Positions 2,300 through 63,842 of a DNA stretch of 64,000 nt are shown here, in pieces. Origin of the DNA: Candidatus Schekmanbacteria bacterium RIFCSPLOWO2_02_FULL_38_14. Lineage in GTDB: Bacteria > Schekmanbacteria > GWA2-38-11. Position numbers and translations under genes: made by a program. The stretch is taken from positions 1-64,000 of the forward strand of contig MGDH01000008.1 in NCBI GenBank assembly GCA_001790855.1, read 5' to 3'. Positions within the stretch are counted from its first letter, which is position 1, and every line of letters begins with the position of its first letter. The notes under the pieces were generated by a model. The model did not search any database. It was given only the letters and a program-made list of their open reading frames with translations, and had not been told where the DNA came from.

Positions 2300-5092
2300 A
2301 TGGAAAAAATTGATTACAAGAACACTTTAAATCTTCCAAATACCTCCTTCCCGATGAAGGCTAATCTTGCACAGAAAGAGCCAGATTTTCTTGCAAGATG
2401 GGATAAAAATAAGATTTATACAAAGCTGCGGCAAAAATATTCCGGCACCAAGAAATATATTCTTCACGATGGTCCCCCTTATGCAAACGGGCATATCCAT
2501 ATAGGAACAGCTCTGAATAAAATTCTTAAGGATATTGTTGTGAAGATTAAGGCTATGGAAGGTTATGATGCAGTATATGTGCCTGGATGGGACTGTCACG
2601 GGCTTCCAATTGAGCACGAGGTGGACAAAAGCCTCGGGAAAAAGAAAGCCTCACTCTCTGTGGTTGAGATTAGAAAGATGTGCCAGGAATACGCAATGAG
2701 GTTTGTTAATATACAGAGGGAGGAGTTTAAGAGGCTCGGAATACTTGCAGACTGGGAAAATCCCTACCTTACGATGTCTCCTGAATATGGTGCGGCAATT
2801 ATCAGGGAGCTGGGAAAGTTTTTTCAAAACGGAGGCGTATATCGCGGCAAGAAGCCAATCTACTGGTGTGCTTCCTGCAAGACCGCTCTCGCAGAGGCAG
2901 AGGTTGAGTATGAGGAGCATACCTCGCTTTCGGTTTATGTAAAATTCCCTGTTGTGAAGGAAAAGAGCGGAGTCTTAAAGAATATTAAAAAGGATAAAAT
3001 CGATTTCCTCATCTGGACGACGACTCCATGGACACTGCCTGCAAACCTTGCAATATGCCTTCATCCTGATTTTATCTATTCAGCAATTGAAGTCAGCGGA
3101 GAGGTGATGGTTGTTGCCAGGGAACTTGTAAAGGATGTAGTGAGAAAAATGGGGAAAATAGACTATCATACTCTCGGTGAATACAAGGGGACAGAACTTG
3201 AAGGGATAAGGTGCCAGCATCCTCTGTACAAAAGAGAGTCTGTTGTAATTTTTGGTGAACATGTGAACCTTGAGCAGGGAACAGGATGTGTCCATACTGC
3301 TCCGGGGCACGGCGCAGAGGACTACGATATGGGACTGAAGTACGGGCTTGAAATCTACAACCCTGTTGATGATGAGGGAAAATTTACAAAAGATATAGAA
3401 GAGTTTGCAGGGATGAAGGTTTTTGAGGCAAACTTTCTGATAAAGGATAAGCTCAGGGAGCTTGGTTCCCTGATATTTGAAGAAAAAATCAAACATTCCT
3501 ATCCCCATTGCTGGAGATGCAAAAACCCGGTAATTTTCCGCGCTACGGAGCAGTGGTTTATTTCCATGGAAACCAATGGCCTCAGGAAAAAAGCCCTCAG
3601 TGAAATCAGGAAAGTAAAATGGATTCCGCCATGGGGTGAAAACAGAATTACAGGAATGATTGAGAACCGTCCGGACTGGTGTATCTCAAGGCAGAGGTCG
3701 TGGGGGGTTCCGATAACAGTGTTTTACTGCACCTCATGCAATGAGATTCTTGCAAGCGGAGAGGTTTTTGAAGCAGTTGCAAGGGTTGTTGAAAGGGAGG
3801 GAACAGGGGCTTGGTTTTCAAAAGAGGCTCAGGAGATTTTACCGCAGAATGTTTCCTGTAAAAAATGCAACGGAAAAAGCTTCAGAAAGGAAACGGATAT
3901 TCTTGATGTCTGGTTTGATTCAGGGACAAGCCACGAGGCGGTTCTTGCAAAAAGAAAAGAACTTTCCTTGCCTGCTGATATGTACCTTGAGGGAAGCGAC
4001 CAGCACAGGGGATGGTTTAACAGCTCTCTTCTTATTGCTGTAGCAAATCGTGGCGCATCTCCGTTTAACGCAGTTCTGACACACGGCTATGTGGTTGATG
4101 GCGCCGGAAAAAAGATGTCAAAATCTGCCGGCAATGTTATTGCTCCTCAGGAGATAATAAAGAAATACGGCGCAGAGATTTTAAGACTATGGGCATCTTC
4201 TGTTGACTACAGGGATGATATAAGAATATCAAATGAAATCATAGAAAGGTTGTCAGAGGCATATCGTAAAATCAGAAATACCTTTAAATACCTGCTGGGA
4301 AACCTTTATGATTTTGATTTTAAAAAAAACAGGGTCTCCTGCAGTGAAATGGAGGAGATTGACAGATGGGCACTCCATCACCTCCAGAAATTAATAGAAC
4401 GGGTGAGAAGCGCCTTTGATGAATTTGAGTTCCATGTATTTTTCCATATGTTCCATAATTTCTGCTCTGTCCATATGAGCTCCTTCTACCTTGATATAAT
4501 AAAGGACAGGCTTTACACATCAAAACCTGATTCAAGGGAGAGACGCTCTGCGCAGACAGCCCTTTATTTAATCCTTGACTCAATGGTCAGGCTTATGGCT
4601 CCAATCCTTTCCTTTACCGCAGAAGAAATCTGGGGATATCTTCCGGGCAACTCAATGAGGGAAGAGAGCGTTCATCTTTCTCTTTTCCCTGAGGTTAAGA
4701 ATGAATATGTTGACCAAGAGCTGGCAGCAAGATGGGAGAATATAATCCTTTTGAGGGAAGAAGCAGCAAAAAAACTTGAAACGGCAAGAAGGGAGAAACT
4801 CATAGGTCACTCGCTTGACGCACTGGTTGAGATAAAGGGAAAAGGGAAAAACTTTCAGTTCTTCAAAACTTACCAAAACCAGCTTCACACAATCTTCATA
4901 GTGTCGCAGGTTATTTTAAAGGAAGAGGATGTTGATGAAGACTCCTTTGAGAATGAAGCCCTGAGGGGTTTGAAAATCTCTGTTTCGAGGGCAAAAGGGG
5001 AAAAGTGCGACAGGTGCTGGATGTACAGCGAAAGCATTGGCGAAAAAAGAGAGCATCCAACAGTATGTTCAAGGTGTGGCGGGAATCTGTGA
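2300..5092 (+). CDS. ileS: Isoleucyl-tRNA synthetase
   Basis: A 930-residue class I aminoacyl-tRNA synthetase that charges tRNA-Ile in the cytoplasm. The HIGH-type signature sits in [11 protein letters not shown] (HIHIG at residues 65-69) and KMSKS is exact at 605-609. The editing (CP1) domain contains [10 protein letters not shown] and [12 protein letters not shown]. The C-terminus keeps a zinc-finger module with CDRCW and CSRC pairs, as in the bacterial-type enzyme. Full length and intact. It starts 3 bases after cobO and converges with lptD, leaving 27 bases between stops and no obvious terminator hairpin. Confidence 0.98.
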
Positions 5093-5119
5093 TAAAATTT
5101 CAAGTTTCCGGACTGAATT

Positions 5120-7651
5120 TTACAAACTCAGCGGTCCGATTGCTCCGAGGCTTTCAAGCTCTATTACAAGCCAGAAGAACTGGTCATTTCTTATTTCATC
5201 ATCAAAAGTCATCTTGGAATGTCCTTCCCTGAAATATTCTCTTACTCCATAGAGCGCTTCAACTGACCAGCACTGGCTTGAATATTTTGTGCGAATGGCA
5301 AATTCACGCTGGCTCAGGCTGAAGAGGTCACTGTCAAGAGATTGTTCTGAGGAATAGAACCTTCCGAGGTATCCAAGCTCCCAGCCGTTTGGAATGTTAA
5401 GGTCAAGCTTCAAGGTGGTGAAGGTATTACGAAGAGGAGTCTGGATTCTGGATGACGGGTTATAATCCGGTTCATACCAGTCAAGAGCCTGGTTTTTTTC
5501 AGGGTCTGTCCATCGCATGGAAAGTGAGGCATTAAGTTTTGTTCTGAAAAATTCACGCTCAAAGTTGATATTTCCTATAAATCTGTCAAGGGCTCCGTCA
5601 GTGGGGTCAAAGAAGGAGTTAAGGTTAAATACAAGATATTTATATGGATAGAGCTCCAAATCAAAGTTTAGATCAGAAAAGGCTTTTTTCTGCACATCAA
5701 CCCTGCTCTGACTGAGGATTTTGTTGCCAAAACGCCCCTCTCTTACAATTCTGTCCCTTGTACTTTTTTTATCCTTCATAAAGTCATAATACTGGCTTAT
5801 CTTAATGGTTGCTACCTCCCTTGCTGTTTCATTTCCATTTCCGGCATCTTTGAATTTTGCATAAAAACGGTTGGTGATTGAGTAGGAAAGAAACTCTCTC
5901 CCCTTAATATAATCCAGAGAATCTGTCTGTATTATAGTGCTCTGGTCAACGCTTGGAATATACTGATATTCAACAACAGGTTCAATTACGTGCTTTAGTT
6001 TGCTGATATCCAGAAAATTAAATCCAAGGGTTTTATAAATTCTCGGGGCATCAAACCTTAAGGAGAAGTCAAAAAGTTCTCTTGATAATGCCGAGTCCCC
6101 GCTGAAATCTGTTCTCTTGCCTGTACTGTCGGCTTTACCCTGAAATTCCTCGCTCCTGTTCCTGCTCGACTGAAGCCTGTGGGTATAATAGGTTTCTCTT
6201 ATCCCTATTGCTGGGGTAAGGGTCATAAAATTTTTATAACTTAAAGGCAGTAAGATGCTGGGGTGTATATCCAGTCTTTCGGTAATAAATGAGTTTTTTG
6301 TATCACCGTCAAAGGTGTAGTCATTTGTATCTTTACTGCTTTTTAATGACGCAAAGGAAGCTTCAAGGTGAAACTGAAAAGGCATTAGTTCCGAGAGTTT
6401 TTCAAAGTCTTTGAAAATACCGTTTCTGCCAAAAACAGGCTGGGCAATGCTTATGAATTTCAGTTCAGGAAGATGCTGGTATATGCTTTCAATACTTGCT
6501 TCTCTTGAACCTTCTGGGTCTACTGCCTGCGACTTGATTCTGTCCTCATAGCCGCTTATGTTTAAAAGAAAGGCATTTTTCTCCCATGTTTTTGTAAGCG
6601 AAAAATAAGAATCAGACTTAATATCAGACTGTTTTGTTCTTTCTTCAAATGTTTCCTTAAAATCCCTGTTAAAGTTTTCATCGCTTCTTAAATCAACCTT
6701 TAAAATCATTCTCAGGTTTTCAGGAAAACTTTGCTGGTGGAAGGCAAAGAAATTCCACCTTGCTTTTTTTCCTGTTGTTCCGCTTTCATTACTGTAACCT
6801 GATCGGGTATCTATTATATATCCATTGACAGCGCCTGAACTTTCCTCGTCAATTACATACCTGAAGTTTCCCTCTGCGCCTACTCCTCTTTTTCCCTGAT
6901 AGTCGATATTGAAGGTTGCATCAGCATAATCAGTCAGCGCCCAGAAGAATGGCTGGTACCAGCGGAATCCGTTTCTTGTGCTGGAACCGATTTTTGGAAA
7001 TAAAAGTCCGGTAGCGCGTTTGGTTTTTATTGGTACAAGGAGATGGGGGAAATAGAATACCGGAACTTTTTTTATTGCAAATGAAGCATCCTTGGCATGA
7101 AGCATTCCTTCTACTTCTGCTGTTGCCTCTGAGGTTTTAATAGACCATTCAGGGACCGGCTTCTGACAGGCTGTGTAATATCCGTTTATAATTTTATATT
7201 TATCAACTCCGAGCCTTCTTATCTCAACCCCTGTGAGGTAATAGGTTGGCTCAAGAAATAATTCACCATTATAGATTACCCCAATCTGTGTTTTGATGTT
7301 AAGGTCCATAGATTCACAGAAAAGCACTGATGAGCCATCTTCGACAACCACATTGCCTGTCGCTTTTACGTTTCCTGTTTCAAGGTTATATTCAGCCCTG
7401 TCTGCCTGAAGGCTCATGCCGCGGTACTGTATGTCCACTGAGCCTTCACCTATAAGGAGGTTCTCATCTTTTCTGTAATCTAAATTCTCAGCGTAAAAAT
7501 CAACCGGTATGGTATCATCTTTGCCCATTGCTTTTATTCTGTCAGAAATCTTTTCTGAAGCGAAATCAGCTGTCTTTTCTGCAAAAGAAATGACAGTGAG
7601 GCTTTTCAGAATCAGAAGCATTAAAAATATGTAAAGGAAATTTTTTCTCAT
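5120..7651 (-). CDS. lptD: LPS-assembly outer-membrane protein LptD
   Basis: An 843-residue outer-membrane protein that inserts lipopolysaccharide into the outer leaflet, normally with the lipoprotein LptE. It has an N-terminal signal peptide (about residues 1-24, MRKNFLYIFLMLLIL core) and an LptA/OstA-like periplasmic domain (about 45-150, with AENLDYRKDENLLIGEGSV and RADRAEY-like beta-jellyroll repeats). A long LptD barrel follows, with the family segment VPVFYFPHLLVPIKTKRATG near 190-210 and an aromatic-ending strand-rich C-terminus. It lies 12 bases downstream of folC on the same strand. Its presence implies an LPS-bearing outer membrane. No lptE was recognised in the window. Confidence 0.95.
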   Translation of the reverse strand: MRKNFLYIFLMLLILKSLTVISFAEKTADFASEKISDRIKAMGKDDTIPVDFYAENLDYRKDENLLIGEGSVDIQYRGMSLQADRAEYNLETGNVKATGNVVVEDGSSVLFCESMDLNIKTQIGVIYNGELFLEPTYYLTGVEIRRLGVDKYKIINGYYTACQKPVPEWSIKTSEATAEVEGMLHAKDASFAIKKVPVFYFPHLLVPIKTKRATGLLFPKIGSSTRNGFRWYQPFFWALTDYADATFNIDYQGKRGVGAEGNFRYVIDEESSGAVNGYIIDTRSGYSNESGTTGKKARWNFFAFHQQSFPENLRMILKVDLRSDENFNRDFKETFEERTKQSDIKSDSYFSLTKTWEKNAFLLNISGYEDRIKSQAVDPEGSREASIESIYQHLPELKFISIAQPVFGRNGIFKDFEKLSELMPFQFHLEASFASLKSSKDTNDYTFDGDTKNSFITERLDIHPSILLPLSYKNFMTLTPAIGIRETYYTHRLQSSRNRSEEFQGKADSTGKRTDFSGDSALSRELFDFSLRFDAPRIYKTLGFNFLDISKLKHVIEPVVEYQYIPSVDQSTIIQTDSLDYIKGREFLSYSITNRFYAKFKDAGNGNETAREVATIKISQYYDFMKDKKSTRDRIVREGRFGNKILSQSRVDVQKKAFSDLNFDLELYPYKYLVFNLNSFFDPTDGALDRFIGNINFEREFFRTKLNASLSMRWTDPEKNQALDWYEPDYNPSSRIQTPLRNTFTTLKLDLNIPNGWELGYLGRFYSSEQSLDSDLFSLSQREFAIRTKYSSQCWSVEALYGVREYFREGHSKMTFDDEIRNDQFFWLVIELESLGAIGPLSL

Positions 7652-7663
7652 AAACCCTTTTCT

Positions 7664-8998
7664 TTAGCGTCCTAAATAAAAATACCCCTCTTTGCTCTCC
7701 TTATAGTTTTTCCGGTTGCTGTTTTCTTTTTTTTCAAATTTTTTAAGAATATCAGCAACAAGAAAAGTAGAACCGGTAACGCAGATTAAGTCATTTTTTT
7801 CTGAAAGTTTTTGAGCGAGTTCCAGCGCTTTTACCGGGTTTGCCATTGCTATTACCCTGTTATCATCAGCGAAAAAAGTTTCTTTTATCTTTTCAGGGTC
7901 AAGTGAGCGCGGATGGTCAGGTTTTGAAAGAATTATGTTTTTTGCCAGAGGCTTCAGGGTTTTTAATATTTCAGCATAGTTTTTGTCAGACAGGGCAGCG
8001 TAGACAAAATTAACAGGCATATCTTTCAGGGCATCACTTTTCAGAAATTCACAAAGCTGCAGAATTCCTGAGATGTTATGGGCACAGTCAAAAAGCATTT
8101 TTCCGGGGCTTTGGATAAATTCAAGCCTTCCGCGCCAAATTACATTTTTCAATCCTTCTCTGATATTCTGCCTGTTGACTTTATATCTCAACTCGGAAAG
8201 CTTCAGGGCTGCAAATACAGCAAGGCTTGCATTCTTTGCCTGATGTTTTCCGCACAGAGGAGTTTTAATATTTTTGAAATCTGCAAGTGGAGAGGTGAAG
8301 TCAAAGGATGTTCCATGGAAATCTGTATTTACTGATGAAAAGGAAAAATCTTTTCCGGATAAAAAGATTTTTGACTTTCTATCATCACAAATTTTTTTAA
8401 AAAGATTTTGAATATCATCAGATTCCTCAGAAGCGATTAGTGTTCCACAGGGCTTGATTATCCCTGCTTTTTCAATTGCAATTTCTTCCAGGGTTTTTCC
8501 AAGGTATTCAGTATGGTCAAGCCCAATATTTGTGATTACTGACAGCAGGGGGTTTGCCACATTTGTTGCATCAAGCCTTCCGCCCATTCCCACTTCAAGG
8601 ACCGCAATGTCAACCTCTTCCTGCGAGAAATATATTAATGCAACTGCTGTGATGAATTCAAAAAAAGAAAGAGGCTCAGGCAGATTTTTTTTAAGACCGT
8701 CAACAAGATTATCCAGTTTCTGGCGGCTTATTTTTTCGCCATTTATCGTGATTCTTTCACGCAGGTCAAAGAGATGAGGCGATGTGTAGAGACCTATTTT
8801 ATATCCTGATTGCCTGAGAATGCCTGCAAGCATTGAAACTGTTGACCCCTTGCCGTTTGTGCCTGCAACAAGGACAGAATCAAAACTGTCCTGAGGGTTT
8901 CCATATACAGAAAGGCTTTTCTTTATGGACGCTAAATCAAGCCTTATTCCCATTTTCCCAAGGCTGTAGAGATATTGTATAGTGTCATCTTTCTTCAT
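7664..8998 (-). CDS. folC: Bifunctional folylpolyglutamate / dihydrofolate synthase
   Basis: A 444-residue Mur-ligase-family enzyme that adds glutamate to dihydropteroate and to folates. The ATP-binding loop VAGTNGKGSTVSML is near residues 43-56. The family signatures HTEYLGKTLEEIAIEKAGIIK (near 160-180) and FDCAHN (near 300) are present, as is the C-terminal ligase domain with KPDHPRSLDPEKI. Length is typical. Transcription probably starts just upstream at the TTGACA/TATAAT pair of 9011-9037, so the mRNA would have a very short leader, and no Shine-Dalgarno sequence precedes the ATG. It forms an operon with lptD. Confidence 0.95.
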   Translation of the reverse strand: MKKDDTIQYLYSLGKMGIRLDLASIKKSLSVYGNPQDSFDSVLVAGTNGKGSTVSMLAGILRQSGYKIGLYTSPHLFDLRERITINGEKISRQKLDNLVDGLKKNLPEPLSFFEFITAVALIYFSQEEVDIAVLEVGMGGRLDATNVANPLLSVITNIGLDHTEYLGKTLEEIAIEKAGIIKPCGTLIASEESDDIQNLFKKICDDRKSKIFLSGKDFSFSSVNTDFHGTSFDFTSPLADFKNIKTPLCGKHQAKNASLAVFAALKLSELRYKVNRQNIREGLKNVIWRGRLEFIQSPGKMLFDCAHNISGILQLCEFLKSDALKDMPVNFVYAALSDKNYAEILKTLKPLAKNIILSKPDHPRSLDPEKIKETFFADDNRVIAMANPVKALELAQKLSEKNDLICVTGSTFLVADILKKFEKKENSNRKNYKESKEGYFYLGR

Positions 8999-9010
8999 AG
9001 TTTATAGAAA

Positions 9011-9037
9011 ATTATATGAATTGATATTGGTTGTCAA
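9011..9037 (-). promoter_or_regulatory. Promoter candidate for folC-lptD
   Basis: On the minus strand, perfect TTGACA (9037-9032) and perfect TATAAT (9016-9011) are separated by 15 bases, shorter than the optimal 17. The -10 ends only 12 bases from the folC ATG, predicting a leader of about 6 nucleotides. Confidence 0.55.
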
Positions 9038-9129
9038 ACTTAAACTTTAGCATAAAAGACTGCTTCCTTTTTAATTAAATAGATGATATTATAAAACATC
9101 CATGAGCACAGATTTAACTTTTATTACAA

Positions 9130-9243
9130 ATGAGAAAGACAAAAGTTCACAACTATGAAAAACAAATTAACCAGATGGTTTATAAGCTTTATGGCTTAAC
9201 AGAGGAAGAAATTAAAATTGTAGAGAATTTTGGTAATAAATAA
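9130..9243 (+). pseudogene. C-terminal stub of an N6-adenine DNA methylase
   Basis: A 37-residue frame ending in YGLTEEEIKIVENFG, preceded by INQMVYKL. This matches the characteristic C-terminal tail of Eco57I/TaqI-like restriction-modification methylases (VYxLYGLTEEEIxIVE). Stops close the frame upstream and no methylase body is present, so this is a relic. It directly precedes a helicase relic, consistent with decay of a restriction or defence locus. Assignment rests on the tail motif only. Confidence 0.5.
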
Positions 9244-9246
9244 ACT

Positions 9247-9405
9247 ATGGAATACACACCTGAACAATTAGATATTTTAAAACATGACCCTGAAAAACAT
9301 GCTTGTATTTTAACAGGTCCAGGAACAGGAAAAAGTTTTACAATTATTAGTTATATTGGCAAAGTCCGCGAGCAACACAAAGATAAAAATATAAGACTTC
9401 TATAA
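9247..9405 (+). pseudogene. N-terminal stub of a UvrD/Rep-type (SF1) helicase
   Basis: A 52-residue frame from ATG 9247 to TAA 9403-9405. It begins MEYTPEQLDILKHDPEKHA and contains a perfect Walker A, LTGPGTGKSFTIISYI, as in the UvrD-like ATPase N-terminus. The frame ends abruptly after about 50 residues and no other helicase motifs follow, so the rest is deleted. It starts 3 bases after the methylase stub. Confidence 0.6.
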
Positions 9406-51978: not shown

Positions 51979-52674
51979 ATGAGTAAAGATAAATCTTTCA
52001 CCATTCACGACCTGCCAAAACAGGAAAGACCAAGAGAAAGGCTTAAGAATCTCGGAGCAGAAGCACTTTCCTCCCAGGAACTTTTGGCATTGATTATTGG
52101 TCGCGGTATTCCAAAAAAATCAGTCATAAATATTGCACAGGAGTTATTGACAAAGTTTGGCAATATTAAAGCTATAAGTCAGGCAACTATAGAGGAACTA
52201 TCTCAAATAAAAGGGATAGGTTTTGCAAAGGCAGTACAAATAAAAGCCTGTTTTGAATTAGGCAAAAGACAGGATTTGGAACCAGAGATTAAAAATATTG
52301 ATATCTCAAATCCAGAAAGTTTGATAAAAGTTATCAGTGCAAGTATTCAGGATAAAGCAAAGGAACATTTCAAGCTTGTTCTTTTAAATGCACGGAATAA
52401 AATCATTGGTATATCTACTATATCTGTTGGCACATTAAACTCAAATTTAGTGCATCCGCGAGAAGTTTTTAAAGAAGCTATCGTCCATAGTGCTGCTTCA
52501 GTCGTTTTAGTCCATAATCATCCTTCTGGTGACCCTGAGCCTTCGGAAGATGATTTGACGATTACAAAAAGATTAGTAGAAGCTGGCAAAATTTTAGGGA
52601 TTGAGGTTACAGACCATATAATTATTACTAAAAATGGATTTTTTAGTTTTAAAGAGAGAGGATTATTGAGATAA
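51979..52674 (+). CDS. radC: RadC-family JAB/MPN-domain protein
   Basis: A 231-residue protein. N-terminal helix-hairpin-helix region (ERLKNLGAEALSSQELLALIIGRG and ELSQIKGIGFAKAVQIKACFELG) is followed by the JAMM metalloprotease-like domain: HPREVFKEAI and the metal-binding HNHPSGDPEPSEDD near residues 175-188. RadC proteins are often carried on genomic islands; their biochemical role is unresolved and the old repair assignment is doubtful. It lies at the left border of the restriction-modification island and 41 bases upstream of the ORF6N gene. Confidence 0.92.
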   Translation: MSKDKSFTIHDLPKQERPRERLKNLGAEALSSQELLALIIGRGIPKKSVINIAQELLTKFGNIKAISQATIEELSQIKGIGFAKAVQIKACFELGKRQDLEPEIKNIDISNPESLIKVISASIQDKAKEHFKLVLLNARNKIIGISTISVGTLNSNLVHPREVFKEAIVHSAASVVLVHNHPSGDPEPSEDDLTITKRLVEAGKILGIEVTDHIIITKNGFFSFKERGLLR

Positions 52675-52679
52675 ACTTG

Positions 52680-52698
52680 AAGTCACAAATTGTGACTT
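52680..52698. promoter_or_regulatory. Perfect palindrome, candidate operator upstream of the ORF6N gene
   Basis: AAGTCACAA-A-TTGTGACTT: 9-base perfect inverted repeats around one base, between radC and the ORF6N gene (ATG at 52716). A related TGTGA...TCACA repeat lies after the specificity gene at 56621-56637. It is likely a binding site for the adjacent DNA-binding protein. Confidence 0.55.
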
Positions 52699-52715: not shown

Positions 52716-53231
52716 ATGAAGACACTGATTCCATTAGAAGCGATTGAGAAAAAAATCTATTTGATACGTGGACAAAAGGTGATGTTAGATAAGGACCTTG
52801 CAGTTCTTTATTGTGTAAAAGCGATACGATTAAGAGAACAAGTTAAACGAAATATAAAACGTTTTCCTGAAGATTTTATGTTCCAATTAGATGAAAAAGA
52901 GATTGACATTATGGTATCGCAAAATGCGATACCTTCACGTAAATACCTCGGAGGGTATCAGCCTTATGTTTTCACAGAACAAGGAGTTGCAATGCTCGCC
53001 ACTGTTTTAAACAGTGAAAGAGCAATAAAAGTCAACATTGAGGTTATGAGAACATTTGTCAGGCTACGCCAGATGCTTGCTTCCAACAAAGAACTTGCCA
53101 AAAGGCTTGATGAACTTGAAAGTAAATATGATGCACAATTCAGGGTTGTCTTTGACGCTATCCGTCAGTTGATGACTCCACCTGAACCAAGACAGAAACA
53201 AATTGGCTTTCTCAAAGGCAAAGAGAAATAA
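52716..53231 (+). CDS. ORF6N-domain DNA-binding protein
   Basis: A 171-residue protein with an N-terminal ORF6N domain (residues 5-90: PLEAIEKKIYLIRGQKVMLDKDLAVLY, VKRNIKRFPEDFMFQL, YQPYVFTEQGVAMLATVLNS) known from phage antirepressors and from restriction-modification loci. A helical C-terminal tail follows. It stands 15 bases upstream of the nuclease-methylase gene in the same direction, and a palindrome precedes it, so a role as local regulator is likely. It has no enzymatic motif. Confidence 0.88.
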   Translation: MKTLIPLEAIEKKIYLIRGQKVMLDKDLAVLYCVKAIRLREQVKRNIKRFPEDFMFQLDEKEIDIMVSQNAIPSRKYLGGYQPYVFTEQGVAMLATVLNSERAIKVNIEVMRTFVRLRQMLASNKELAKRLDELESKYDAQFRVVFDAIRQLMTPPEPRQKQIGFLKGKEK

Positions 53232-53246
53232 AGGATAGTATTTACT

Positions 53247-55256
53247 ATGAAGAATATAACTTACACACCTCCAAAAGAAAGAATTGGCACAGAAGAAATC
53301 TTTGATCTGATTTTCAAAGATTCTTCTATAAAACATGGGTTACAAGAATTCTCAAAAGACATTCTAAAAAAAGTCAGTGCATTTGAAAAAGAAAATGGAA
53401 GATTTTATGTTCGTTGCTTAAAGAGAAATAAGGACATTTTTGTTTATGACAAAAATAAAAAAATGGGAAAGCCTGAGGAAGTTATACGTCAGCTTTGGCT
53501 AATAAAGCTAACTCAGGGATACAAATATCCAATAGACAGAATAGAGGTTGAGAAGTCAGTTCAATTTGGAAGGGAAGTAAGAACAAAAGCAGCAGATATT
53601 GTCTTATATAAAGAAGATAAAGTTACTCCATACATAATTTTTGAAGTTAAAGAACCTAATGCCAAGAAAGCCGAAGAACAATTAAAATCATATTTAAGTG
53701 CAGAGGGCTCAGAAGGTGGTGTTTGGTCTAATGGAATTCAAAAATTTATACTTTATCGCCCTTACCCTAAAGAATATGTAACTACCCTTTCAGATATCCC
53801 TGATGTCAATCAAACATGGGATGATCTTTTTGAAGAAAAAAGAACTTACGATGAATTGAAAGACAAGTTTGATTTATCTTTTATCATTTCCCGACTTGAA
53901 GAAATGGTTTTGGCGCAAGCTGGAGTAAACGTATTTGAGGAGGTTTTTAAATTAATCTATGCCAAGCTCTATGATGAAGACCAGGCAAGAAATGTTAGGG
54001 CAAAAGGAGAAGTTCATTTTAGACAATATAAGGAACCAAAGAAAACATACACTATTATTAATGATGAGCTTTTTAAAGGCGCAATTCAAGAATGGCAAGA
54101 TATTTTTAACCCTTTATCCAAGATTGATTTGACACCAGAACAGTTACAGATATGTGTTCCTTTCTTAGAAGACAAAAAATTCTTCGGATCAGGTAGAGAA
54201 GAGTTAGAAATTATAGACCGTGCCTTTGAACATTTGATTGCAGAAGTTTCAAAAGGTCAAAAAGGGCAGTATTTCACGCCTCGTAATGTAATTAAGATGT
54301 GCGTTAAAATACTTAATCCCATAAAGAATGAACATATCATTGACCCTGCTTGTGGTTCAGGTGGGTTTTTACTTCATACCATGTATTGGGTCTGGGATAA
54401 TGATTTAAAATCTGCTTCTGATGCTGCAAAACAAAAATACGCTAACCGCTATCTGTATGGAATTGACTTTGATGACAATATGCGCCGAATTTCTCAAGCC
54501 TTAATGCTTATTGCCGGCGATGGCAAACACAATATCTTCAAGCGTAATTCCTTAGATGGAAGAGACTGGATTGGTGAACAGGCAGAGGGAGCAAGGATAT
54601 CTTTAAAATCACTTTTGAGACTGTTTGAAAACTCCAAAGAGAATGAAGAAAATCGTAAGACTTATCGCTATCTCAATTTTGATATATTAATGACCAATCC
54701 TCCCTTTGCTGGTGAAATAACAGATTCTGCTCTGCTGCGTCAGTACGAATTTGCAAAGAAGAATGGAAAACTTAAACAAAAAGTTGAACGCCATTTACTT
54801 TTCATTGAGCGTTCTTTAGATGCACTCCGTCCTGGTGGAAGAATGGCGATTGTTTTACCTCAAGGAGTTTTTAATAATACTAATATGGAATGGATAAGAT
54901 TATGGTTTTTTGAAAAAGCACGAATCTTAGCGGTAGTTGGTTTAGAAGGAAATACCTTTAAACTTCCTGCTCCTGCCAAAGGCACAGGAACGAAAACCTC
55001 GGTTTTGTTTTTGCAGAAATGGGAAAAAGACCAAAAACCTTTAGATGATTATCCAATATTCATGGCTGTCTCTAAAAAATCCGGCAAGGATAATTCTGGA
55101 GAGTATATTTTTATAAACGATGAAGGAAAAAGAATAACTGCTAAAAATGGCATTTTTGAAGCACATGAGAGTTTAAAGCTTGATGATGATTTGAACGAGA
55201 TTGCAGAAGAATTCATAAAGTTTGCTGGAAAAGAAAAGTTTGAGTGGTGGAGATGA
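53247..55256 (+). CDS. Nuclease-methylase fusion of a BcgI-like (type IIB / type I-derived) restriction-modification system
   Basis: A 669-residue protein. Residues about 60-180 form a PD-(D/E)xK-like nuclease: D117 in AADIVLY and FEVK with E133 and K135. The helical HsdM N-terminal domain follows (about 210-320). The N6-adenine methylase core has DPACGSGGF (366-374, SAM binding) and MTNPPFAGE with NPPF at 484-487 (catalytic). No SNF2/SF2 helicase motor is present, unlike HsdR. This order resembles the BcgI A subunit, which cuts and methylates with a separate S subunit. It should recognise DNA through the next gene. Confidence 0.9.
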   Translation: MKNITYTPPKERIGTEEIFDLIFKDSSIKHGLQEFSKDILKKVSAFEKENGRFYVRCLKRNKDIFVYDKNKKMGKPEEVIRQLWLIKLTQGYKYPIDRIEVEKSVQFGREVRTKAADIVLYKEDKVTPYIIFEVKEPNAKKAEEQLKSYLSAEGSEGGVWSNGIQKFILYRPYPKEYVTTLSDIPDVNQTWDDLFEEKRTYDELKDKFDLSFIISRLEEMVLAQAGVNVFEEVFKLIYAKLYDEDQARNVRAKGEVHFRQYKEPKKTYTIINDELFKGAIQEWQDIFNPLSKIDLTPEQLQICVPFLEDKKFFGSGREELEIIDRAFEHLIAEVSKGQKGQYFTPRNVIKMCVKILNPIKNEHIIDPACGSGGFLLHTMYWVWDNDLKSASDAAKQKYANRYLYGIDFDDNMRRISQALMLIAGDGKHNIFKRNSLDGRDWIGEQAEGARISLKSLLRLFENSKENEENRKTYRYLNFDILMTNPPFAGEITDSALLRQYEFAKKNGKLKQKVERHLLFIERSLDALRPGGRMAIVLPQGVFNNTNMEWIRLWFFEKARILAVVGLEGNTFKLPAPAKGTGTKTSVLFLQKWEKDQKPLDDYPIFMAVSKKSGKDNSGEYIFINDEGKRITAKNGIFEAHESLKLDDDLNEIAEEFIKFAGKEKFEWWR

Positions 55257-56608
55257 TAACTTATTCAATCATTCAGAAATCTCAACTTGAGAGTGCAAAT
55301 AGGCTTGATGCAGAGTATTATCAGCCTGAGTATTTTATAGACTATTCAAAAGGTAATTGGAAACCAATTGGTAGCTTTTTAGAAATTTGTCAGTATGGTA
55401 TTTCTCAAGCTATGAACGAAAATGCTGTAGGATGCCCTATTTTTCGAATGGATGATATAAAAAATGCTTTTTTAATGGATGACGAAGTTAAGTATGTGGA
55501 AATTTCTAAAAATATTTTTACTCAATTCAAATTAGAGAAAAATGATGTTTTATTTAACCGGGTAAATTCAGAGGATTTTGTTGGTCGCACGGGTATTTTT
55601 AAATTAGATGGGATTTTTGTTTTTGCCTCTTACCTTGTTAGATTACGAGTCAAAAAAGAAGACTCTATACTTGCAGATTATTTGAATATTTTTCTAAATT
55701 CATCCTTTGGTATTAAACAAATTAGAAAATTTAGAAGGCGTGCAGTAAATCAGGCAAATGTAAATGCAGAAGAATTAAAACAGATTAGAATTCCTGTCTT
55801 TCCACAAAATATTCAAAAAGAAATTGAGCAACTAAGTAACGAGTCATGGAATAATTATGAATTATCCAAAGCCTTATACTCCCAAGCTGAAGATTTGCTT
55901 TTAGAAGAATTGGGTCTGAAAGATTTTAAACCAGAAGAAGATTTATCCTGTACTGTTAACCTCTCCGAAGTAAAGTCTGCTCACCGTGCCGATGCTGAAT
56001 ACTTTCAGCCGAAATATGAGAAAATAATAGAGAAAATCAAAAAATATGGTGCTGAAGTATTGCTAAATATTGTTGAAAATGTGCCTGCAAAATTTAACCC
56101 TCTTACACAACCAGATAAATTATTTAAATATGTAGAACTTTCAAATATAAACTCTTCAATTGGTATTATTGATGGATATTCTGAGGTTTCTGGCCAAGAA
56201 GCTCCCGGTAGGGCAAAAAGAGTTTTAAAGACAAATGATGTAATTGTTTCCAGTGTTGAAGGATCATTAGAAAAAGTAGCATTAGCGAATAAAGAGCAAG
56301 ATGGATTCTTAGCTTCAACAGGATTTTTTCAATTCCGAGGTAAAGAAATTTTACCTGAAGTTTTATTAGTTCTCGCAAAAAGTCTTGTTTTACAAATGCA
56401 ATTAGAAAAACAATGCGCTGGCACAATACTCACTGCTGTCCCAAAAGAAGCAATAAAAAATGTTTTTATTCCTATTCTTCCTAAATCCATTCAGCAAAAA
56501 ATTGCTGATTTAGTTCGGCAATCCCATGAAGCGCGCAGGAAAGCAAAAGAATTATTAGAGGAAGCCAAGCGAAAAGTTGAAGAGATGATTGAGAAAAAGT
56601 GCAATTAA
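55253..56608 (+). CDS. hsdS: Specificity (S) subunit of the restriction-modification system
   Basis: A 451-residue HsdS-like protein with two target-recognition domains separated by coiled-coil spacers: TRD1 about 1-190 (ending QIRIPVFPQNIQKEIEQL) and TRD2 about 240-420 (ending NVFIPILPKSIQQKIADLV). This indicates an asymmetric bipartite target. ATG 55253 overlaps the TGA of the methylase gene (ATGA); the GTG at 55244 is an alternative. The C-terminal Lys/Glu helix is complete. No separate HsdR gene follows, consistent with a two-gene system. Confidence 0.92.
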   Translation: MITYSIIQKSQLESANRLDAEYYQPEYFIDYSKGNWKPIGSFLEICQYGISQAMNENAVGCPIFRMDDIKNAFLMDDEVKYVEISKNIFTQFKLEKNDVLFNRVNSEDFVGRTGIFKLDGIFVFASYLVRLRVKKEDSILADYLNIFLNSSFGIKQIRKFRRRAVNQANVNAEELKQIRIPVFPQNIQKEIEQLSNESWNNYELSKALYSQAEDLLLEELGLKDFKPEEDLSCTVNLSEVKSAHRADAEYFQPKYEKIIEKIKKYGAEVLLNIVENVPAKFNPLTQPDKLFKYVELSNINSSIGIIDGYSEVSGQEAPGRAKRVLKTNDVIVSSVEGSLEKVALANKEQDGFLASTGFFQFRGKEILPEVLLVLAKSLVLQMQLEKQCAGTILTAVPKEAIKNVFIPILPKSIQQKIADLVRQSHEARRKAKELLEEAKRKVEEMIEKKCN

Positions 56609-56922: not shown

Positions 56923-57216
56923 ATGAAAACACTTGAAGAGATAAGGAATTTGCTGTTAAGGCATAAAGAACAACTAAGGAAAGAATATGGGGTAAAAGAA
57001 ATTGGCATATTCGGATCTTATATAAGGGGTGAACAGGACAAAAGCAGCGACCTTGATATTCTCATAGAGCTTGAAAAACCTATTGGGTTTGTGAAGTTCC
57101 TAAAGCTTGAGAATAGCTTATCTGCTTTGATAGGAATTAAAGTCGAACTTGTAACCAAAAAAGCCTTAAAGCCTTATATAGGACAACGCATTCTTCAAGA
57201 AGTTAGATATGTCTAA
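56923..57216 (+). CDS. mntA: MntA-type minimal nucleotidyltransferase antitoxin
   Basis: A 97-residue polymerase-beta-like nucleotidyltransferase. The catalytic signature is GIFGSYIRGEQDKSSDLDIL with G31-S32 and D43/D45. ATG 56923 is preceded by GAGGGGAA; the frame from TTG 56911 is less likely. MntA antitoxins add AMP units to a Tyr of the HEPN toxin. The toxin gene follows with an 8-base overlap, so the pair is translationally coupled. The motif is complete, so it should be active. Confidence 0.88.
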   Translation: MKTLEEIRNLLLRHKEQLRKEYGVKEIGIFGSYIRGEQDKSSDLDILIELEKPIGFVKFLKLENSLSALIGIKVELVTKKALKPYIGQRILQEVRYV

Positions 57217-57553
57217 AGAACGACTGTTACAGGATTATCTAAATGACATTATAGAATCCATCTCTGATATAAGAGAATTTATAAAAGGAATGTCATTTGA
57301 AGATTTTTCAAAAGATAAGAAGACAATAAAAGCTGTTGTGAGAAGTCTTGAAGTCATTGGAGAAGCAGCAAACAAAATCCCTCAGAATCTCAGAGATAAT
57401 TACCCTGAAACTTCCTGGCAGGAAATTATTGGAATGAGAAATCGACTTATCCACGAATATTTCGGAATAGATATTGAGATTCTCTGGCAGACAATAGAAG
57501 AAGACTTAGAACCCCTATATAAAACTGTCAAAAGAATAGTTTCTGATACCTAA
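57209..57553 (+). CDS. hepT: HepT-type HEPN ribonuclease toxin
   Basis: A 114-residue all-helical HEPN protein. The RNase motif Rx4H occurs as R77-N-R-L-I-H82 followed by E-Y84, the RX4HXY form in which the Tyr is the site AMPylated by MntA. Upstream KAVVRSLEVIGEAANKIP is a typical HepT helix. The toxin and antitoxin genes overlap. Its stop overlaps the next DUF2283 start by one base. Confidence 0.9.
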   Translation: MSKERLLQDYLNDIIESISDIREFIKGMSFEDFSKDKKTIKAVVRSLEVIGEAANKIPQNLRDNYPETSWQEIIGMRNRLIHEYFGIDIEILWQTIEEDLEPLYKTVKRIVSDT

Positions 57554-61346: not shown

Positions 61347-63842
61347 ATGAATACAGAATCAAAATTTATTGATGTTGCAGTTGATAGTCCGGTTTTCTCT
61401 CAATACCTTTATGCAGTTCCTGAGAGCTTAAGGCAGGAAATTGATATTGGTAAAAGAGTTCTTGTCCCATTTGGAAAGAAAATTATAACAGGTTACATAA
61501 CTGCATACAGCACAAAAACCCAGGCTTTTGAAATTAAAGAAGTCATTGATGTGTTGGATGACAAGCCGTTATTATCAGCACGGATGTTAGATTTATGCAG
61601 ATGGATTAGCAGATATTATTTTGCGCCTCTCGGTTTGGTTATTAAGTCAGTTCTCCCTGCAGGGATTAACATAAAGAGCCTGACAGTGGTAAAAATTTCA
61701 GGGGCAAGCGGCAAGGGGCAAGGAGGAATGGAACTGGAGTCAGAAGCTGAAAAGCTTGGCGAAACAGAAGAAAAGATTTATGAATTTGTTAAAAAAAAGG
61801 GCGAGGTTTCACTTTCCGGCATTCAAAGGGGATTAAAAATCAATCAGATATATTCTCCGGTAAAGAAATTGTGCTCTGCCGGATTGGTTGAAACATTTAT
61901 GAAGGTTAAAGGGCCAAGCACATATTCGATGAAAATCAAATATGTCCGCATTAATTTAAAAGAGGATTTTGAAGCTCTGATAAAAAAATTTAAAATTAAA
62001 GGGAGAAAAGGATATGAGGTTTTGAAATTAATTTCCGAGAAAGGGGAAATGCCTTTAAAAGACTTAATGTCAGAAACCTCTTCCGGTATTTCAACAATAA
62101 AATCCTTAAGGAAAAAGGGGATTCTGGAAATATGTGAAAAAAGAGTTTTGAGAGACCCTTACAAAGAGGTTGTTTTTACTAAAAGCGGACATCTGCAGTT
62201 AAACGACAGCCAAATCCTTGCATTGGAAGGGATTGTTAATGAGATTGACAGAAAGGAATTTTCAGGCATCCTGCTGCACGGTGTAACAGGAAGCGGGAAA
62301 ACTGAAGTTTATATTCAGGCTATAGGCAAAACAATAGAGCAGGGGAAAAAGGCAATTGTTCTTGTCCCTGAAATTTCTCTGACGCCTCAGATGGTTTCGC
62401 GTTTTAAGTCAAGATTTGGAGAAAGGGTTGCTGTGCTTCATAGCGCCCTTATGCCTGGTGAGCGTTTTGATGAATGGCAGAAGATATATAATGGAACAGT
62501 TGATGTTGCAGTTGGCGCACGTTCAGCCATTTTTGCACCCTTTGAAAATACTGGTCTGATTGTTGTAGATGAAGAGCATGACAGTTCATATAAGCAGGAA
62601 GAGGTCCCGTGTTATAATGCGAGGGATGTTGCGCTTGTAAGAGGCAAGCTGCAAAATTGCACTGTAATTTTAGGCTCGGCTACTCCATCTTTGGAATCCT
62701 TCTATAATGCAAGAATTGGGAAGTATAAATACCTGAGGCTTGAAAAGAGAATAGGTGATAAGCCTATGCCTGAAGTGGAGATAGTTGATATAAGAAAGAG
62801 TTTCAAAAGTGAGAGAAATAAGGATTTTTCAATATGTTCAGAAAATCTCATTGAATCAATAAAATCGGTTTTGAGAAAAAATGAGCAGGTACTACTGTTC
62901 ATAAACCGCAGAGGTTATGCAAATTTCATACAATGCACAGCTTGCGGTGAAAGCCTGAGATGCCCGAACTGCAGTGTAACATTGACATATCATAAAAAGG
63001 AAAAGAGACTTAAATGCCACTATTGTGATTATTCAATTTTTCTTTCTGAAACGTGCCCTCACTGCAACTCTTCTGCGATAAAAGAGATTGGTATTGGAAC
63101 ACAAAAATTAGAGGAAGAAATTAAAAAATTGTTTCCTGATGCACGCGTAGCGAGATTTGACAGGGATACAGTCAAGGGTAAATTCTCTCATCAGAAAATA
63201 CTTGAAAGGCTTGAGAACGGGGAGATTGATATTCTGATCGGGACTCAGATGCTCTCAAAAGGACATGACTATCCAAAAGTAACATTAGTCTGCGCAGTTC
63301 TTGCAGATTTAGACCTGAATTTTCCTGATTTCAGGGCAGCTGAAAAAGGGTTTCAGCTTCTTGTCCAGGTTTCAGGAAGGGCAGGAAGGAGTTTTTTTAG
63401 AGGGAAAAGCATTATTCAAACACTGAATCCTGAACATTACTGTATTGAGGCAGCCAAAGAGCATAACTATTTAAAATTTTTTGAAAGAGAGATTAATTTC
63501 AGAAAAAGGCTTAATTATCCGCCTTTTACAAGGATAGCAAATATTATCATTAAGGGTGATACAGATGCTGAAACCAAAACTGCAGCGGCGGAATTTAAAA
63601 GATTATTGCTGAAAGCAAGTGAAGACCAGAATATAGAAAGTTTAGATATTCTTGGCCCTTCACCAGCACTCCTGCACAGACTGAGGGCTAAATATCGATG
63701 GCAGATTATTATTAAATCAGAAAAAATAAGTTTTCTTCATTCAGTTCTTAACAAATGCAGGGATACCCTGCAGTTTACTCCTAAAAAGGAATTTAAAAGG
63801 GTTAGTATTCATATTGATATTGACCCAGCCAATTTAGTTTAG
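61347..63842 (+). CDS. priA: Primosomal replication helicase PriA
   Basis: An 831-residue SF2 helicase (from ATG 61347) that reloads the replisome at stalled forks. The N-terminal 3'BD domain opens FIDVAVDSPVFSQYLYAVPE, followed by a winged-helix region. Walker A is GVTGSGKT at 312-319 and the DEEH box is at 408-411. The zinc-binding insert has CTACGESLRCPNCS...CHYCD...CPHCN (about 528-575), then motifs V/VI with IGTQMLSKGHDYPKVTLV and QLLVQVSGRAGR. A slight insertion near residue 120-130 (GKGQGGMELESEAEK) enlarges it. Full length and intact. Confidence 0.96.
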   Translation: MNTESKFIDVAVDSPVFSQYLYAVPESLRQEIDIGKRVLVPFGKKIITGYITAYSTKTQAFEIKEVIDVLDDKPLLSARMLDLCRWISRYYFAPLGLVIKSVLPAGINIKSLTVVKISGASGKGQGGMELESEAEKLGETEEKIYEFVKKKGEVSLSGIQRGLKINQIYSPVKKLCSAGLVETFMKVKGPSTYSMKIKYVRINLKEDFEALIKKFKIKGRKGYEVLKLISEKGEMPLKDLMSETSSGISTIKSLRKKGILEICEKRVLRDPYKEVVFTKSGHLQLNDSQILALEGIVNEIDRKEFSGILLHGVTGSGKTEVYIQAIGKTIEQGKKAIVLVPEISLTPQMVSRFKSRFGERVAVLHSALMPGERFDEWQKIYNGTVDVAVGARSAIFAPFENTGLIVVDEEHDSSYKQEEVPCYNARDVALVRGKLQNCTVILGSATPSLESFYNARIGKYKYLRLEKRIGDKPMPEVEIVDIRKSFKSERNKDFSICSENLIESIKSVLRKNEQVLLFINRRGYANFIQCTACGESLRCPNCSVTLTYHKKEKRLKCHYCDYSIFLSETCPHCNSSAIKEIGIGTQKLEEEIKKLFPDARVARFDRDTVKGKFSHQKILERLENGEIDILIGTQMLSKGHDYPKVTLVCAVLADLDLNFPDFRAAEKGFQLLVQVSGRAGRSFFRGKSIIQTLNPEHYCIEAAKEHNYLKFFEREINFRKRLNYPPFTRIANIIIKGDTDAETKTAAAEFKRLLLKASEDQNIESLDILGPSPALLHRLRAKYRWQIIIKSEKISFLHSVLNKCRDTLQFTPKKEFKRVSIHIDIDPANLV

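Follow-up and report, generated by a model that had tools for sequence, protein, structure and literature searches.

Characterised Type IIB restriction enzymes number 28 in REBASE, 16 of them with sequence (PMC11997821). The described enzymes of this kind that consist of an RM and an S subunit cut DNA on both sides of their site (PMC11997821, PMC3874165), and in one of them, BsaXI, cleavage is abolished by alanine at E73, D90, E105 or K107 (PMC11997821). Here, we have analyzed a window of 64,000 nucleotides from Candidatus Schekmanbacteria bacterium RIFCSPLOWO2_02_FULL_38_14 (contig MGDH01000008.1, positions 1 to 64,000), in which an RM gene is followed by an S gene. We consider it very probable that this pair is a free-standing Type IIB restriction-modification system of the BcgI/BsaXI-like, RM+S kind, a rare and compact form of defence in bacteria, and, judging from its sequence, the system is probably active.

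The RM subunit is encoded on the forward strand at 53247..55256 and is 669 amino acids in length, with a predicted N-terminal PD-(D/E)xK nuclease, a helical connector and an N6-adenine methylase. An initial annotation had placed a nuclease and an N6-adenine methylase in this one polypeptide, and Pfam bears this out: HSDR_N_2 matches residues 76-185 (53472..53801, forward strand; E=3.5e-21) and N6_Mtase matches residues 322-653 (54210..55205, forward strand; E=7.8e-35). The residues and motifs that it had listed are present, with DPACGSGGF at 366-374 and NPPF at 484-487; D117, E133, K135 and both methylase motifs are invariant in all 11 near family members, the window RM counted. Overlooked at that stage were E102 and the HsdR-type motif Q145xxxY149 of the nuclease domain. 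The nearest solved relative spanning both RM domains is RM.BsaXI (2.1e-28 with the single sequence; 6.6e-69 with the profile). The nuclease domain is under as much selective constraint as the methylase, with pN/pS of 0.087 and 0.094, respectively, across the window RM and seven of its near relatives; with synonymous sites close to saturation, these values serve for domain-to-domain comparison only.

Structure prediction of residues 1-200 had been set beforehand as a check on the nuclease assignment, and AlphaFold, run on residues 1-212 with a 61-sequence alignment, returned a PD-(D/E)xK fold (pLDDT 85.1, pTM 0.81). The prediction comprises a helix at 77-91, strands at 99-107, 110-121 and 128-134, and a helix at 139-153, and the order of helix, three strands, helix and strand is that of PD-(D/E)xK enzymes. 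E102, D117 and E133 lie on consecutive strands of the model, K135 ends the third strand, and Q145 and Y149 are located on the next helix. Foldseek matched the model to restriction-endonuclease-like 3ijm (1.2e-4), BsaXI (2.6e-4), Cas4 and BpuSI, with EcoR124I HsdR ranking lower at weak scores, and a profile of the domain alone matched BsaXI (4.9e-8) and HsdR 3h1t (7.4e-5), so that BsaXI is matched by both fold and profile. The proposal that D117, E133 and K135 are the PD-(D/E)xK residues agrees with their alignment to BsaXI D90, E105 and K107; equivalences were counted by hand along printed alignments, and the pairing of E102 depends on the alignment, being with E73 in two of three and with E75 in the third, the profile alignment over both domains. 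Given the model, the Foldseek and profile matches and the residues that match the BsaXI mutants, we confidently predict that RM residues 1-212 form a PD-(D/E)xK nuclease-type domain. An AlphaFold run on the full-length RM with 11 near-identical sequences reached a pLDDT of only 43.7, and this poor model was set aside. Against a BsaXI-like reading, the window RM lacks the knob and paddle that are specific to BsaXI; paddle residues also matter for BsaXI cleavage, and no other characterised Type IIB enzyme has a paddle (PMC11997821).

The 61-sequence alignment (A5) had been pre-filtered for D117 and (E/D)xK, making conservation there a matter of construction, and our claims on conservation rest instead on an unfiltered set of 104 relatives. 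The nuclease domain is readable in 93 of these, 84 outside the clade of the MAD2 methylases and nine inside it, the tenth clade member, L109, being gapped at position 133. D117, E/D133, K135 and Q145 are kept in 84/84 of the outside relatives in the profile alignment, and position 102 is Q, N or K in nine of them. Relatives with a damaged nuclease site number ten and all belong to the single MAD2 clade. FastTree gives the clade of ten a support of 88, and its larger subclades reach 94 to 100. Every tested protein above the MAD2 cut-off falls in this clade (L030, L035, L055, L109 and L119), and L125 and L138 belong to it though they score below the cut-off. A kinase lies downstream of S at L030 and L138. 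An early alignment had suggested that the nuclease sites of L030 and L035 were fully dead; this was dropped, as the profile alignment leaves D-x-K, and only the loss of QxxxY is claimed. The L119 locus (3725-9326) has two RM-type methylases in tandem ahead of a single S; the nuclease site is dead in one, which is MAD2-like, and the other has HSDR_N_2.

The window pair is distantly similar to MAD2 and MAD5, a resemblance that would suit a module that methylates, has an inactive nuclease domain and guides other effectors, as in the more recent methylation-associated defence system (MADS). We regard this as highly improbable for the window. MAD2 is the nearest named NCBIfam model for its RM, at 270.6 bits against a cut-off of 720 (proteins that pass score 760-1021 bits), and no kinase was found among the neighbors tested, from RadC to a DprA-like gene. 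Furthermore, the Q145/Y149 pair is absent from all ten MAD2-clade members and ExK from most, whereas the window RM retains all six residues (E102, D117, E133, K135, Q145 and Y149). Since all ten damaged-site relatives fall in the MAD2 clade, MADS probably descends from this RM-S family, and the pattern is most simply explained by the nuclease having decayed once, in the lineage of MADS. On balance, we lean towards a scenario in which MADS arose once from the BcgI-like family, the MAD2 lineage losing the nuclease site by decay, retaining the methylase-S guide and gaining other effectors, with the window as a free-standing sister whose nuclease is active. The family thereby ties candidates for cutting on both sides to MADS, whose version of this domain appears dead.

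The best PADLOC match of the RM is a type I methyltransferase model, and some annotations likewise call it a type I M subunit. If so, the pair would be a type I methylase (M2S) with its HsdR encoded elsewhere and the N-terminal domain a docking or structural remnant, and the window genome (43 contigs, 99.4% complete) does contain one HsdR. The HsdR in question lies on contig C14, as one gene of a complete R-M-S operon, and the only HSDR_N_2 domain found in the genome is that of the window RM. Contig C18 of the same genome (3294-3386) carries what is probably the remains of a type I methylase, an N-terminal piece of HsdM containing a stop. The initial annotation had reported no HsdR motor, and this holds for the window, in which the sole ResIII-type helicase (62193-62690) was ruled out as an HsdR candidate because it is PriA, and for the flanks of the 104 relatives, whose ORFs gave no match to 11 diverse HsdR queries; at least 3 kb was available on each side at 62/104 loci, and a search by sequence might overlook a very divergent HsdR. 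Of the 11 genomes with near-clade members, three gave no match to a SWI2/SNF2-type HsdR helicase. One of the three is a closed chromosome of 680,436 bases, in which the ResIII matches are RecG, UvrB, topoisomerase and T2SSE proteins; its S gene is split and the start of its RM ambiguous. Across the same 11 genomes, an HsdR-type helicase lies within about 8 kb on the same contig for 12/20 canonical HsdM genes compared to 0/11 RM genes (Fisher p=0.0014, from a tally made by hand). The catalytic nuclease residues are also kept family-wide except in one clade, and we find a type I M2S assignment very unlikely. With a nuclease fold predicted and no HsdR pairing with RM-S found elsewhere in the genome, the original BcgI-like RM+S reading is supported.

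The specificity subunit S lies on the forward strand at 55253..56608 and is 451 amino acids in length, with two TRDs and two conserved helical regions. The earlier claim of a two-TRD S subunit following RM stands, with two Methylase_S stretches (E=2e-13, Pfam) at the expected coordinates, but its start at GTG 55244 does not. Relatives start with the same MITYSII, which makes ATG 55253 the most likely start; S and the RM stop then overlap as ATGA. The solved S subunits 5ybb_D and 3okg_A match at about 7e-25. Identity to relatives is mostly 50-93% over residues 1-30, about 211-270 and about 421-450, compared to 0-41% over TRD1; for TRD2 it is mostly 57-87% with L021, L023 and L024 and far lower with the other relatives. 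Variable TRDs together with conserved S regions give the pattern expected from TRD exchange. Prediction of a target site from TRD1 was dropped, its match to EcoKI TRD2 being weak (3.4e-14).

For the RM+S system, stoichiometry, cleavage itself, cut position and target sequence are what we infer. Two RM subunits would assemble on one S subunit as (RM)2S, with each of the two TRDs reading one half of a bipartite target in the DNA. One adenine would be methylated at N6 by each RM, so that both strands are marked, and at an unmethylated site the N-terminal PD-(D/E)xK domains would cut at a fixed short distance, needing neither ATP nor translocation. The cuts would probably flank the site and excise a small fragment; by analogy with the described RM+S enzymes, we think cleavage on both sides likely. 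An enzyme of the same composition that cuts one side only, or nicks, would be Type IIG-like and not IIB, and the family has single-chain members of 787 amino acids (L029) and 816 amino acids (L034) with little space for a second TRD, the usual Type IIG layout. The window S carries two TRDs and described RM+S enzymes cut both sides (PMC3874165, PMC11997821), making a one-sided cutter or nickase unlikely here. Picosynechococcus carries a natural single-chain R-M-S fusion of 1179 amino acids, which would need no S from another gene, and the surroundings of the single-chain family members gave no HsdR.

The RM-S system spreads horizontally. Ten near RM relatives are 69-86% identical, and the phyla with near relatives include Nitrospirota, Thermodesulfobacteriota, Omnitrophota, Caldisericota and Patescibacteria. 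At about 41-45% identity there are relatives on plasmids, among them an RM+S pair from a Klebsiella plasmid; E. coli has this same pair next to two DUF262 genes, apparently within an integrative element. At three loci (L126, L105 and L144), RM-S pairs adjoin lambda-type portal genes and are carried by phages or prophages; viral scans with the queries A1, L025 and L034 gave no matches. Cargo lies between RM and S or just past S at L016-L024, including DUF3800 (three loci), NYN, DUF5677 and a spore-photoproduct-lyase match, with several genes having no Pfam match; the window copy has no cargo between RM and S. Family members usually carry no label beyond N-6 DNA methylase or type I M. Characterised Type IIB enzymes are few, whereas this family is widespread, reaches across phyla at 70-86% identity, has signs of TRD exchange and, if its enzymes cut, would be a source of new both-side cutters.

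An ORF6N-domain protein (52716..53231, forward strand; ORF6N 1.1e-32 in Pfam, PDC-S05 1.4e-55 in PADLOC) is encoded 15 nt upstream of RM and probably shares its operon; ORF6N remnants also lie upstream of RM in L015 and L017. Preceding it is a RadC of a distinct clade (51979..52674, forward strand). The same RadC clade (62-80% identical) is found immediately before RM, or separated from it by one gene, in the window, L018, L020 and L024, spanning several phyla, and is also found unlinked to RM in three genomes (G004, G005 and G006). The other full RadC of the window genome (contig C22) is just 38% identical to the window RadC. RadC with RM-S is a recurring association, in which RadC is at most a putative part of the module. 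Upstream of RM at L021 (116-1087), an N-terminal portion of RadC is apparently joined to a separate domain, and the next genes are cargo and a split S. Between RadC and ORF6N in the window (52682-52696) lies a perfect palindrome, GTCACAAATTGTGAC, absent from the other loci searched and a possible operator. Downstream of S, a Nucleotidyltransferase (NTP_transf_2) and HepT-like pair (56926-57553) is a probable MNT-HEPN toxin-antitoxin.

Among known systems, the window pair shares with BsaXI (Type IIB, RM + S; PDB 8w0p) an N-terminal PD-(D/E)xK domain, a helical connector, an N6 methylase, a separate two-TRD S and matching catalytic residues. Identity across the nuclease domain is about 20%, and the BsaXI RM has 916 amino acids with knob and paddle whereas the window RM, at 669, is without that extra length. 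The archetype BcgI and Helicobacter pylori HpyUM032XIII share the RM + S layout and the lack of a motor (PMC3874165, PMC4450513); both are compared with the window pair by layout. MAD2 and MAD5 of MADS are a homologous RM-type methylase and S subunit placed side by side, but loci of the MADS clade have a kinase in several cases examined and a degraded nuclease site, neither of which is a feature of the window. Type I systems (HsdR, HsdM and HsdS) share an HsdR-type nuclease domain with QxxxY, an HsdM-like methylase and an HsdS-like S; unlike these, the window pair has no translocase/ATPase, and its nuclease is fused to the methylase.
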